Part shown: positions 8,610-41,510 of the stretch, in pieces
Layout of the letters: each line of letters begins with the position of its first letter
How positions within the stretch are numbered: position 1 is the stretch's first letter
Assembly: GCF_029338295.1 (NCBI RefSeq)
Contig: NZ_CP119791.1
Coordinates: 2,108,001 to 2,172,000 of the forward strand
Direction of reading: 5' to 3'
Length of the DNA stretch: 64,000 nucleotides
DNA from: Haladaptatus sp. QDMS2
GTDB taxonomy: Archaea; Halobacteriota; Halobacteria; Halobacteriales; Halococcaceae
The notes under the pieces: model-generated
What the model saw: only the letters and a program-made list of their open reading frames with translations
Told to the model about the DNA's origin: nothing
Databases searched by the model: none
Position numbers and translations under genes: made by a program

Positions 8610-8668
8610 AAAGCAAGTAGGCCGTGGGCGGAATTTAGACTTTTCCTATCTTTCTTCAAGGAGAGAAT

Positions 8669-9178
8669 CCCGCCGTTCACGGCGGGCGTGAATCCGACAT
8701 GGCACTGAGCAACCATCGACGAGTGCCCGCTGAAACCCAAACAGTTAGTACATGCCATGACGTGGGTGTTAACAAGGGTTACGTCGGCTCTCGGCACTTG
8801 CGCGGGAGTACGAGACGCGCTGAAACCAGCGTCCCGAATATTTCGGGGCGTCGGTTCCCACGGGTCGGTTCTGCAACCGACTGCGGGGTTCGCGTCGTTC
8901 GCCAGCACGGGAACCCGGCCTACGGGTCGGGGAAGTGTGACCGAACCGACCGTGCCGTGAGGCATGACCGCTTGGGAGAGAGACGCCCTGAGAAACCGGG
9001 CGTCGATGACTCGCTTGCGGATGGGAGCGCCCGTGACAGCGCCACAGGACGCTCCCGAGCGAGGGACGAAACCCGTCCCACCGACCTCGGGAGAAACGGT
9101 CCTGAAACCTGCTCGGCAACAGGCCGGGTTTCCTCCTGTGTGGGGAAGCCCCGTCGTTTACGACGGGGAGGATGCCAC
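8669..9178 (+). mobile_element. Relic IS200/IS605-type element without transposase (element A)
   Basis: This stretch opens with the palindrome CCCGCCGTTCACGGCGGG (8669-8686) and ends with CCCCGTCGTTTACGACGGGG (9149-9168) plus GAGGATGCCAC. The last 37 bases (9142-9178) match the right end of the intact TnpB element at 35646-35682 (opposite strand) at 36 of 37 positions. No frame between the ends shows a recognisable TnpB or TnpA. It is either a tnpB pseudogene decayed beyond recognition or a small non-autonomous derivative carrying a right-end RNA scaffold. Boundaries are approximate. Confidence 0.6.
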
Positions 9179-9221
9179 CACGCTAACAAGTTCGTTTTTC
9201 AGATGACATACGAGGCGGAAG

Positions 9222-9621
9222 CCCACGACTTTAGTCGTGGGAGGAAGCCGACATGGGGCTGAACTGCCGATACACGATTGCTTGGCCGGGTTTCGGTATG
9301 TTTAGGTATCATGGTAGCGTGTGACGTGGTAGTGCTGGCTTGCCACAAGTGCCGGTCGGTACGGGCCACGAGTAGGCTGGCCCCGAACTCGGGGACTGTG
9401 ACCGCGAACGGGTTCGACTCCCGTTCCCCACGCGGGGATAGAGCGTGAGAACACCGGGAATTAAATCGGCGGGACAATCCCGGCCTCGGTCGGAGTGGGA
9501 GGCGTATGAAATCGCGCCCACGCCGAGGCAAGGACGGTAAGAGGAAGCCGAGCCTTCGACGGCGGACGAAGCGTGGGCCGAAACCCCCTCGCGGGAGGAA
9601 GCCCACGACTGAAGTCGTGGG
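9222..9621 (+). mobile_element. Relic element bounded by CCCACGAC hairpins (element B)
   Basis: The segment is flanked by CCCACGACTTTAGTCGTGGG (9222-9241) and CCCACGACTGAAGTCGTGGG (9602-9621), the typical terminal hairpins of haloarchaeal IS1341-type elements. The inside has no convincing gene. Its reverse complement is alignable with the stretch around 37671-37790, sharing the 16-mer GGTGTTCTCACGCTCT and flanking sequence. Both are therefore remnants of one element family. The second hairpin lies five bases before the stop of the next gene and may serve as its terminator. Confidence 0.55.
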
Positions 9622-9625
9622 TAGC

Positions 9626-10033
9626 TTACGCTTTCTCGACCCAGACGTTCACGTCGTCGCGGATGTGGTCCGGCACGTCGACGTCGTCGAACTCCTCCAG
9701 ATGAATCGTGTACACCTCACCACGGGCGGTGATGTAGCCCGGTCCGAGACTCTGGAAGTGGGTTTCGAGGCCGTCGTCCCACTGCTCTGAGACGATGTGG
9801 CTGAGCATCGCGAACATCGCATCTTCCTCGGAGATGCCGTAGCGACCCTGCGATTCGACGATTTTCACGCTACACGTTGGACACTGGTGAATCTCGTAGC
9901 CGTCGGTCGTGGCGAAAATCTCTTCTTCGAAGTCGATGGCTGCGAGGCGTTCGTCCATCCGACCGTGAGCCTCACAGACCGCCTTTTCCTCGGGCTGGTC
10001 GCCGATGTAGAGTGGCGTGTAGTCGCCTTGCAT
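9626..10033 (-). CDS. Conserved haloarchaeal protein of unknown function
   Basis: The 135-residue acidic soluble protein contains a single CPTC pair in the middle (HQCPTCSVKIVESQGRYG) and one extra Cys near the N-terminus (VCEAHGRMDERL), which could form an incomplete zinc site. The rest is predicted mixed alpha/beta, ending in VDVPDHIRDDVNVWVEKA. I do not recognise the family. It follows the cobalamin operon in the same direction, 61 bp from the end of cbiP, but its ATG lies inside that gap, so it may have its own promoter. Confidence 0.7.
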   Translation of the reverse strand: MQGDYTPLYIGDQPEEKAVCEAHGRMDERLAAIDFEEEIFATTDGYEIHQCPTCSVKIVESQGRYGISEEDAMFAMLSHIVSEQWDDGLETHFQSLGPGYITARGEVYTIHLEEFDDVDVPDHIRDDVNVWVEKA

Positions 10034-35591: not shown

Positions 35592-35715
35592 TCGGCGGAA
35601 CTCCGAGATTCTCCCTACGCGTCTTTCTGGGACATCGCTGCGCCCGTGACATCCTCCCCGTCGTAAACGACGGGGCTTCCCCGACACGGGGACTCAGGCC
35701 GAGTGCCTGAAGGTT

Positions 35716-36957
35716 TCAGTCCTGATGCGTCGTGAGGGTCATTTGCGCTGGTGCGCTCGTCTCACGGTGGACTGTGGCGGTGTCACAACCGCTCCCGTCC
35801 TGTGGCGAGTCATCGCCTGCCTGTTTCACTGGCAGGCTCTCTCCCCACGGGTCTACGCGACGTGCGATGTTCGCACTCGCGTTAATATCCGCTTGAAACG
35901 TCGAAACGTGGCACACCGGGTTCTTGCACTTGAACTCAGCCTGTCGGGGCCGATACCCGATGTGCTTGCACGAGTGGCACGTCTTCGACGTGTACTGTGG
36001 GTGGACGTACCGAACCGGAATACCCGCGTCTCGTGCTTTGTCCTCAATACGCCCCTGCAAACGGGCGAACGCCCACGAGTGCAGACGTCGATTCATGTAC
36101 TTCCCGTAGTCCAGCGACTCACGGATGTACGCCAAGTCCTCCATCACGATAACAGGGTTATCGAACTGTTGAGCGTACTCCACGGACTCACGAGACGCCT
36201 TCTCGATGATGTCCGTGAGTCGATTCTGGTAGTACGAAAAGCGTTCTTCGACGCGCCACTCGGATGCGTCTCGCTCTTGGAGGCGTTTCAGGGTGGTGAA
36301 CATCTCCTTGCGGAGTCGCTTGGCTTCCTTCCCGTTGATGAGAAGTGGTTTGGTGGGGGTGTCGTGTTGGAGGGCACAGCCCGTAACCAACATCGACTCG
36401 CCAATATCGAATCCAACCCGAGTCGGATTCTCAGGGATTTCGGAGGTGTCCGTGATTTCGTATTCGACGGTAACGTGGAGTGTCCACGTCTTCCGGTGTT
36501 TCTGCAAGCGAAGTTCGCCCACTTTGGTACCCGACTCGTCATCGAGCATGTCGTCCCACAATTCTTGCTGGTCTGGGTTCAGTCGGAGTGGTATCCAGAA
36601 GTTGGTTCCGCGACCGGGTTGCGGAACGTTCCAGCAGAGTTCGTACTCACGCGAGGAGTCGCGGTCGAACTTTCCAGCCCGATTCACGAATCGGAGCGGG
36701 TGGTCTTCTTTGAGTTCCTTCGCACGGTACGTGCGTCGGAGTTTTGGGACGTAGGATTTGAGAGCGTCTTTCGCTTGGTACGGCAAATTGTACGGAGTTA
36801 CCACGTCGTTCGTGGCGCTCATCGTCGTGCAACCGTTGTCGAACGCCTCGTAGAGTGCCTCTCGGTACTCGGTGAGGGTTTGCTGGAGGCGTTGCTCTTT
36901 GCACCGCGTGGGCGGTGCGAGCGTGGCTTCCAGCGTCTTGTTCGCGGTTGCAGACAC
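35716..36957 (-). CDS. tnpB: TnpB, RNA-guided nuclease of an IS1341-type element
   Basis: The 413-residue TnpB has all three RuvC acidic residues: D184 in VGFDIGESM, E273 in VIVMEDLAY and D357 in FQADINASANIA. The zinc finger is C327-x2-C330 with C344-x4-C349. The C-terminal tail (last 50 residues) is Ser/Thr/Gln-rich as in other haloarchaeal TnpBs. TnpB uses an RNA copied from the element's right end to cut DNA and so keep the element in place. Since the active site is complete, the protein is likely functional, perhaps also on RNA from related solo ends such as 9142-9178. Confidence 0.93.
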   Translation of the reverse strand: MSATANKTLEATLAPPTRCKEQRLQQTLTEYREALYEAFDNGCTTMSATNDVVTPYNLPYQAKDALKSYVPKLRRTYRAKELKEDHPLRFVNRAGKFDRDSSREYELCWNVPQPGRGTNFWIPLRLNPDQQELWDDMLDDESGTKVGELRLQKHRKTWTLHVTVEYEITDTSEIPENPTRVGFDIGESMLVTGCALQHDTPTKPLLINGKEAKRLRKEMFTTLKRLQERDASEWRVEERFSYYQNRLTDIIEKASRESVEYAQQFDNPVIVMEDLAYIRESLDYGKYMNRRLHSWAFARLQGRIEDKARDAGIPVRYVHPQYTSKTCHSCKHIGYRPRQAEFKCKNPVCHVSTFQADINASANIARRVDPWGESLPVKQAGDDSPQDGSGCDTATVHRETSAPAQMTLTTHQD

Positions 36958-37011
36958 AGTAACCTGTACGAATTAGACACACTTAAACGTAACTAATACG
37001 TAACACAGGAC

Positions 37012-37161
37012 ATGACGAAGTACGTAAAAATCGAGTTCGATAACGAGGAGCAGTACGAATCGTTGAAAGAGACGAAAGACCACTACGGGTTTACGTGGAA
37101 AGGGATGTTACTGAAGGCGCAACGCACGTTGGAGTCCCAACCGAGCGACGAAGAGCAGTAG
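37012..37161 (+). CDS. 49-residue protein divergent from tnpB
   Basis: A short frame (ATG 37012, TAG 37159-37161) encodes an acidic/basic helical protein, beginning MTKYVKIEFDNEEQYESLKE and containing HYGFTWKGMLLKAQRTLES. It lies back to back with tnpB, whose start is only 54 bp away, and inside the same pair of terminal hairpins, so it is part of the element. The shared AT-rich promoter region (36958-37011) could allow one to regulate the other. I believe similar small genes accompany other haloarchaeal tnpB genes, but I cannot verify this here. Function unknown. Confidence 0.72.
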   Translation: MTKYVKIEFDNEEQYESLKETKDHYGFTWKGMLLKAQRTLESQPSDEEQ

Positions 37162-37227
37162 TTCAGCAGGTGTCGGATTCCCTCCCGGCCTGAAGGCCGG
37201 GATTCCCTCCTTGTAGGAAGATGGCTA

Positions 37228-40299: not shown

Positions 40300-41510
40300 T
40301 AGCGTTTCTACCGTGGGGAGGGACAGGCGACTCTCTGTTCGAGGGACTCGGGAAGATCACGTGTTGCTGCGGCAAACACCAAGTCAACTGCCAATTTTCG
40401 GACAGTCAATCACGACGGGAAGCCGTCGCAACGACAACCACGGATACGCAGTGTGGGCATTCATACGTTGCGGGTTCAGTGGTTGCGAACCGTGCGGCGT
40501 GGACAAGACGCTTCGCGTCTTGTTCGCATCTCGCAGGACCACAGGTCCTGCGGACTCGTCGGAATCCAGCGGATACCGAGACACCAGAACGCATCGCGTT
40601 CTGGGGACGATTCATCCCACGACTGAAGTCGTTGGGTTTCTCGCCTAATCTCTATAAAGATTCAAGAAGAATACTGGTGGCTTTAGCTGAATTGCAGGCG
40701 GGTACGCCCCCTTCCTCAACGAACGACCGAAGGGAGTGAGTAGGGAGGGGATACACCGCCGTCTTCGTCTACGTTCACTGTGCGGTATACCTTTACTACC
40801 ACGGCATTCAAACGGTGTCGTAAGGCACTCACTCTAATGCGTCCGGTGTTCAAACGTGGTTCGCGAAACGGCGAAGCCGTTTCGTCATCACGAAAGGCGC
40901 GACGCGCCTTTCGAACGACGACAAAAAGCGTGCACCGGTCGTGGCTGTTGAGTGTCCATCCGGTAGGAGTGGGACACTCCGAACCGCCTGTAAAGGGAAA
41001 TCGCCTGCGGAGTCTGGAACCGCTGTGGAAACGGTTTCTGCAAGTTCCGACACAGAAACAGGAAGCTCCCACCTCAACAAGTGAGGGCCGGGTAAGCCCG
41101 AACGCGGTAGGTGGGAGTAGTTCACCCACCAGATGAATCCGACTATTTAACTCACAATCCACCGTATTACGCACTGTGCGTGGAGAGCTGGCAGTTGACC
41201 CAGAGTTTGCCACGGTTCATAGCCGAAACCAAAACGTAAGCCGACCACGTCCCCAGAAATCACAGATTTCTGGTGTGCGAACGAGACGCGTCTCGTCAAC
41301 GCCGACCGTCGTTAAACAATCAGGTAACTCGAAGCCCCATGCGGGTACGAGTAACGGCTTCGTGGCAGCGCCACTGGCTGACTGTCCAGCAAACCTTAGA
41401 CTCCCAACCTTCAGGATTGACCTGCCCGGCCAACACCGGGTGGGAGACCCGCGTCGTTAGACGCGGGAGGATGTCACCCTGTCTGATGACCTCAACTACA
41501 CTCGCTAATC
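40300..41510. mobile_element. 1.2-kb non-coding region of transposon relics and hairpin arrays
   Basis: No gene is supported. The region holds three 9-bp-stem/3-nt-loop palindromes (40503-40523, 40532-40552, 40584-40604), then the terminal-type hairpin CCCACGACTGAAGTCGTTGGG (40616-40636). Two more paired palindromes follow (40864-40884 and 40891-40913), then one at 41253-41273 with ACGAGACGCGTCTCGT (41281-41296). A right-end-like hairpin CCCGCGTCGTTAGACGCGGG (41448-41467) followed by GAGGATGTCAC closes the region. At least two decayed IS1341-type elements are suggested. Confidence 0.5.

Follow-up and report, generated by a model that had tools for sequence, protein, structure and literature searches.

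We analyzed a 64,000-nt window of Haladaptatus sp. QDMS2 (contig NZ_CP119791.1, positions 2,108,001–2,172,000 of the forward strand), in which an intergenic site carries a transposon-derived sequence that we call element A (Table 1). A preliminary description had presented positions 9142–9178 as a solo transposon right end with no tnpB beside it, nearly identical to the right end of an intact TnpB element. The match held at 36 of 37 bases against the reverse complement of 35646–35682, with C (9175) vs. T as the sole difference, and tblastn with 21 resident TnpBs found no match in the 1.5 kb upstream of 9142. The sequence is indeed a right end, but it is not solo, as a left end lies ~529 bp upstream and makes 9142–9178 part of a complete element. 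Homology is also not limited to 37 bases, instead covering ~213 bp (8966–9178 vs. 35646–35853) at 70% identity. At the other side, the segment ~8646–8699 matches the left ends of other resident TnpB elements. Together with the 213-bp right-side homology, this left-end match indicates that element A has two ends.

The exact boundaries were set by two congeneric genomes (G001 and G002) in which the same intergenic site has no insert. The flank of element A, ...TTTTCCTAT followed by CACGCTAACAAGTTCG, aligned gaplessly with ...TTTTCCCAT plus TTCGCCAACAGGTTCG and with ...TTTTCCCAT plus TCTGTCAACAGATTCG, which gives an element of 529 bp with CTAT outside. Another filled and empty pair involved a relative in Natrinema pellirubrum plasmid pNATPE01 (L220, 1505–2041), which lies inside a tnpB-type gene, adjoining its GVDIG motif. 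When its flanks were joined after CTAT, they formed an ungapped 240-base alignment with intact tnpB-type genes in Halorussus, Salinirubellus, and Halorubrum plasmids (215/240, 210/240, and 208/240 identities, respectively). Searches for empty sites of the pR1SE2 and virus copies, described below, returned just the filled sites themselves. These alignments establish exact ends for element A and insertion at CTAT without target duplication, and the element A family generally inserts at a fixed short motif with no target duplication, as IS200/IS605 elements do. Directly 3′ of element A, a second protein-free two-palindrome element (element B, window 9199–9627) occupies the same intergenic site; its core (query 189–356) occurs at 74–89% in four haloarchaeal plasmid records and its left end in others.

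Table 1. Features of element A and of the same-class TnpB element in the window.
Feature	Position	Strand	Evidence
CTAT target motif (presumed TAM), host DNA just outside left end	8646–8649	+	Boundary set by empty sites
Element A, tnpB-free, complete, 529 bp	8650–9178	+	End-to-end homologues at unrelated sites (91–93%); empty site in two congeneric genomes
Left end: subterminal hairpin (stem 8669–8675/8680–8686) and foot GAGAGAA	8661–8694	+	30/34 columns invariant among 9 elements
Promoter-like motif: GAAACCC then TTAGTA, ~25 bases 5′ of conserved RNA block	8732–8751	+	16/20 columns invariant
Non-coding conserved 5′ domain, specific to the tnpB-free element A subfamily	8773–8965	+	134/193 columns invariant; no third-position excess
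Omega-RNA scaffold, 8 helices	8966–9178	+	188 bits (model R1); covariation; fold z-score −4.63 for 8966–9194
Right end: hairpin 9149–9168, then AGGATG and CCAC	9142–9178	+	36/37 identical to 35682–35646
Predicted 16-nt guide CACGCTAACAAGTTCG, flanking DNA	9179–9194	+	Exact genome match here alone; length as described for ISDra2 in the available text of PMC8612924
TnpB element with a same-class scaffold, preceded by CCAT (37221–37224)	35646–37220	−	Scaffold 35646–35853, 231.9 bits
tnpB, 413 aa, candidate partner nuclease	35716–36957	−	PF07282, E = 5.2e-16

Across nine elements of the element A subfamily, among which column conservation was counted, the left end, promoter-like motif, RNA domain, and scaffold stood out as conserved blocks separated by variable spacers. 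Only 5/37 columns were invariant in the stretch before the promoter-like motif and 5/21 in the stretch after it, while the scaffold held 110/172 invariant columns at 8966–9137 and 29/41 at 9138–9178. This layout, in which ~25 variable bases separate a conserved box from a conserved block, resembles an archaeal promoter with its transcript, and we infer that 8732–8751 is a promoter of the archaeal TATA type whose transcript follows that gap. Position 9175 is T in the other copies compared, so this particular copy, with its C, could be weakened. Covariation within the 5′ domain was weak (5 of 72 predicted pairs, with most pairs never varying), and we therefore claim no structure for 8773–8965.

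Neither a transposase nor a tnpB gene was found in element A, and reading frames were not kept among its copies. A 187-aa open reading frame across the element was considered and rejected as coding, because changes between copies were spread evenly over codon positions (6/9/7 in L152 and 6/11/9 in L163) and other copies contained stops or indels. The near-terminal palindromes are related to those of IS605-type elements, both at the left end held in common with resident TnpB elements and at the right end. Homology demonstrates that element A descends from the 3′ end of a tnpB element; by eye, the 5′ part of its scaffold resembles the in-frame last tnpB codons (DRLGERRPEKPGVDDSLADGSARDSATG vs. 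DPWGESLPVKQAGDDSPQDGSGCDTATV), a resemblance below tblastn detection.

At gathering scores, Rfam recognized a tRNA alone across the window. The omega-RNA right ends of L001, L003, and L005 gave sub-threshold matches to HgcC (RF00062) of 29.7–34.2 bits against a gathering score of 50, with element A at 34.2 bits. HgcC originates from hyperthermophilic archaea, and it may itself be a TnpB guide RNA. Locus L001 had no match to RF02656 (sot0042) at E ≤ 5. Elsewhere in the window, a third tnpB-free right end (41322–41477, ending GGATGTCAC) carries an RF02656-like scaffold of 32.4 bits (gathering score 88). Five further RF02656-like matches in the same genome, of 24–62 bits and again below gathering, had no adjoining PF07282 match (C1:1678285, C1:1330758, C1:1304993, C1:1463551, and C2:380768), and among four RF02656-like loci tested for a tnpB trace, three had none and L084 had 90 nt. 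A second, RF02656-like class of solo guide RNAs is possible.

The fold of the scaffold was derived from nine sequences, two of them solo (tnpB-free) and seven linked to tnpB genes or fragments. In this set, pairing held in 95.9% of cells and both-side changes were seen in 25 of 49 pairs, a result that the control with slid partners overstates because the structure came from the same rows. A covariance model built from these rows (R1) was run against 195 genomes of the order, and 161 of them had a match at E ≤ 0.001. Element A scored 188.1 bits, but as it was among the training rows, independent solos such as L141 (182.9 bits) are the fairer test. When solos were taken alone (20 distinct rows), 94.6% of cells paired vs. 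40–46% with partners slid, and both-side changes occurred in 31 of 49 pairs. Helices 3, 5, and 6 were paired in every cell, and helix 1 was the weakest (83%). A joint alignment (A7) of these 20 solos with 76 tnpB-linked rows, 96 in all, paired 94.6% of 977 cells in solos and 95.7% of 3669 in tnpB-linked rows, values to be read with the fact that alignments A5 and A7 were fitted to the R1 structure, which favors pairing. The two consensus sequences differ on both sides at 14 pairs. Moreover, the two groups agree at 46 of 108 unpaired columns, where a single base is shared at ≥90% in each, as would be expected if one protein reads solo and tnpB-linked RNAs. These comparisons show that the omega-RNA fold has been conserved over the long term in the absence of tnpB.

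Potential partners are present in the same genome, which contains three TnpA (Y1 transposase) genes with open frames and 30 TnpB matches, or 27 distinct matches after removal of duplicated contig ends. Contig C1 is an unclosed circle whose opening ~30 kb recurs at its end (offset 2,921,336), so that matches there are counted twice. The 33-base core of the right end was found at six places in the genome with ≤3 mismatches, and the reversed pattern, used as a control, at none. Of the resident TnpB elements, two belong to the R1 class, scoring 231.9 and 220.7 bits. However, both lie behind CCAT, whereas element A lies behind CTAT, so the TnpB at 35716–36957 may not be its partner, and the mismatch speaks against use of a resident TnpB by element A in this genome. 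The proposal that this end supplies a second guide RNA in trans thus holds up in part. Such an RNA is plausible, given a complete scaffold that keeps its pairing through compensatory changes, but the exact pairing with that TnpB is not borne out by the motifs. Motif agreement makes another solo, L038 (behind CCAT), well matched to the resident class, and element A less so. A same-class tnpB element was present in 12 of the 13 genomes with solos, which is weak evidence because the R1 class is so common; in genome G116, a solo was the only R1 match at E ≤ 1e-6.

A motif census recognized left ends in 49 of 112 solo and tnpB-linked rows, and CTAT preceded 12 of the 13 solos with a left end recognized by its script. 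Target motif and left-end foot co-varied in these 49 left ends, CTAT occurring with GAG (26/26) and CCAT with GGG (16/16), while seven had other motifs (TATT, CATC, CGAT, CGGT, CTTT, GTGT, and TCAT). This is expected if the foot guides TnpA cleavage. The same agreement, as in TnpA elements, together with the mismatched motif of the resident same-class TnpB, could mean that the folds of such protein-free elements (PATEs) serve TnpA-mediated DNA transposition, or RNA stability, alone and that TnpB is uninvolved. We regard this as unlikely. The TnpA of the IS200/IS605 family reads subterminal end hairpins, and the internal helices therefore point to the nuclease side. A role confined to TnpA would leave seven helices, up to 210 bp inside the element, unexplained, as well as the 46 shared unpaired positions.

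To place element A among its relatives, we listed ~150 R1 places, of which 135 were classified; with two secondary matches in the same loci, these gave 137 matches. Left out were ~14 places at contig edges or of lowest rank, including at least one solo (G177:C70), and one assembly duplicate. Upstream tblastn divided the 137 matches into 23 without TnpB trace, 24 with a partial one, 89 with ≥1000 nt of tnpB, and one at a contig end (L203), which was dropped. In a tree of the 136 scaffolds, made by a quick method and midpoint-rooted, the 23 solos and two partial rows formed one clade (SH-aLRT 96), and the other part contained the 89 tnpB-linked rows and 22 partial rows. Those two partial rows (L185 and L191) are probably solos too, as their left ends lie near the scaffold (256 and 320 nt upstream). 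Labels changed 3 times on the tree, compared to a mean of 21.5 for shuffled labels, which never gave so few, although near-copies help such results. Independent tnpB losses would be expected to lie scattered through the tnpB-linked part, and this was not the case. The single clade, apart from tnpB-linked scaffolds, instead indicates one old, separately propagating lineage rather than fresh deletion. Omega-RNA counts based on tnpB neighborhood will miss such loci, since 23 of 136 strong scaffold matches in this sample had no tnpB.

This tree bears directly on whether element A is an inert remnant, meaning a decaying leftover of a TnpB element whose conserved end is recent and that makes no functional RNA. 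Some observations are in keeping with decay, including the C instead of T at 9175 and other sampled elements that look like recent core deletions (the 24 partial-tnpB rows; L113, with its left end 323 nt upstream). Repeat-mediated core deletion has also been described in Haloquadratum (PMC3119063, in the text available). Yet the 23 tnpB-free rows group together in a single clade, full-length copies exist elsewhere, and solos show compensatory changes; the clade and the covariation largely refute this explanation, which we judge very unlikely. Recent tnpB deletion in element A was ruled out by the clade and the full-length homologues. Such a deletion of a full element had been raised in the preliminary description as an objection to a guide RNA role, and it is contradicted by the grouping of element A with 22 other tnpB-free elements and by copies that are 91–93% identical from end to end in other families.

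Over its whole length, element A is 92.9% identical to L152, 91.6–91.7% identical to L163, L164, and L167, and ~80–85% identical to six more. Near-identical copies thus occur in other haloarchaeal families, at unrelated sites. One genome carries L163 and L164, 100% identical, at two different sites, and two genomes share an identical element (L171 and L172). At E ≤ 1e-30, 15 of 392 genomes, from four families, contained the 5′ domain; four further matches at ~5e-4 are probably chance. The domain was absent from all 17 other genomes of the host's own family, which points to recent arrival by horizontal transfer. A 487-bp sister of the L171 type was 99.6% identical in the Antarctic Halorubrum tailed virus OP630575 (OP630575.1; L218, 1501–1988) and 99.8% identical in Halorubrum plasmid pR1SE2 (L219, 1501–1987), with parts annotated as hypothetical proteins. 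The full-length element A type occurs in plasmid records including Natrinema and Haladaptatus. A scan with an exact pattern recovered Halorubrum, Haladaptatus, and Natrinema genomes. The exact pattern of the 5′ domain had no match in viral_contigs. The earlier suggestion that this end is a substrate for mobilization agrees with the full-length copies elsewhere, the virus and plasmid sister, and the empty sites; judged from these, the element A family is mobile.

As first proposed, the guide would read CACGCTAACAAG from 9179 onward. No second genomic target was found at ≤1 mismatch in the whole genome. With two mismatches there was one place (C1:1582674), preceded by CCTC rather than CTAT or CCAT and no more than the backward control yielded, and a second genomic target was rejected on these grounds. 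Since the guide matches its home site alone, the natural target is probably element A's own empty site. TldR guides direct a TnpB-like protein to a host or foreign locus, and a domesticated guide of that kind, steering TnpB or a TnpB-like protein, would account for the promoter-like motif and the extra conserved 5′ domain; it is nevertheless highly improbable given the lack of a second target with a motif, flanks that differ at every copy, and the absence of the insertion from two congeneric genomes.

Taken together, an old tnpB-free lineage that keeps a promoter-like motif and a complete guide RNA suggests a borrowed nuclease. We consider it probable, on sequence grounds, that element A is a non-autonomous IS200/IS605 element (a PATE) with its own omega-RNA that borrows TnpA and TnpB and belongs to a lineage that lost tnpB long ago. 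Element A would be transcribed from its own promoter at ~8745–8750, reading through into the flank to gain a guide of 16–20 nt (CACGCTAACAAG...), and would be excised and inserted by a TnpA encoded elsewhere. Its omega-RNA would be bound by a TnpB likewise encoded elsewhere, which would cut element-free copies of the site (CTAT plus guide), and repair would restore element A. Element A would in this way keep and spread itself by means of another element's nuclease. Cutting of the element-less site has been proposed to underlie TnpB retention (PMC8612924), and in plasmid drive by TnpB it is the element-less copy that is cut (PMC11870625), as described in the available parts of both sources.

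A bolder version may be entertained tentatively, although we would not favor it on balance. It holds that the family is an ancient, protein-free, RNA-guided selfish element of ~470–550 bp, consisting only of ends, promoter, and guide RNA, that exploits TnpA and TnpB made by other transposons, with the foreign nucleases cutting every element-less allele, plasmid, or virus copy. If true, this would make it the smallest gene-drive-like unit in nature, one that moves among haloarchaeal chromosomes, plasmids, and viruses. A cell's TnpBs would then be a resource that parasites also draw on, a point relevant to how guide RNAs came to be separated from nucleases on the path toward CRISPR arrays. The abundance of tnpB and the forces that maintain it call for explanation, and a lineage without the nuclease but with a guide RNA under selection would separate guide from nuclease, as the guide would be worth keeping even though the nuclease is borrowed. 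At 529 bp and non-coding, element A offers a compact natural system in which to test trans-guided retention and the sharing of guide RNAs between elements.

Guide RNA loci without an adjoining nuclease gene have a precedent in the standalone IscB omega-RNAs reportedly found by Altae-Tran et al. in 2021. Those belong to a different nuclease family from the TnpB of element A, and to our knowledge they have not been shown to form a mobile lineage. Searches of the open PMC literature, which leaves subscription papers mostly outside, turned up no account of an omega-RNA lineage lacking tnpB. By its features, element A is a PATE with a working-looking omega-RNA, and both components were already known, at least from the available text of the sources (PMC3119063 for PATEs and PMC12558985 for haloarchaeal omega-RNAs). 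The PATEs of Haloquadratum walsbyi are likewise protein-free, with near-terminal palindromes, IS605-type kinship, and no target duplication, and one of them, HqIRS71, retains part of the tnpB C-terminal coding region (PMC3119063). They were described in 2011, before TnpB guides were known, and element A would add to that account an omega-RNA, a promoter-like motif, covariation, and a separate clade. Haloarchaeal IS200/IS605 omega-RNAs, or sotRNAs, resemble that of element A and its relatives in their position at the element's right end, in the hairpin before the guide and, for tnpB-linked copies, in the overlap with the tnpB 3′ region. However, they are processed from tnpB-linked loci, whereas element A has no tnpB (PMC12558985, in the portions available).

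The TnpB reRNA of ISDra2, as presented in the accessible text, is similarly built, with ~150 nt from the tnpB 3′ end and the right end plus ~16 nt of flank, and its target motif is likewise the insertion motif (PMC8612924). By contrast, the ISDra2 nuclease is encoded in cis, while that of element A would act in trans. The TnpB gene drive of plasmid IS elements follows the same logic of cutting element-less copies, but those elements, in the account available to us, encode TnpB themselves (PMC11870625).
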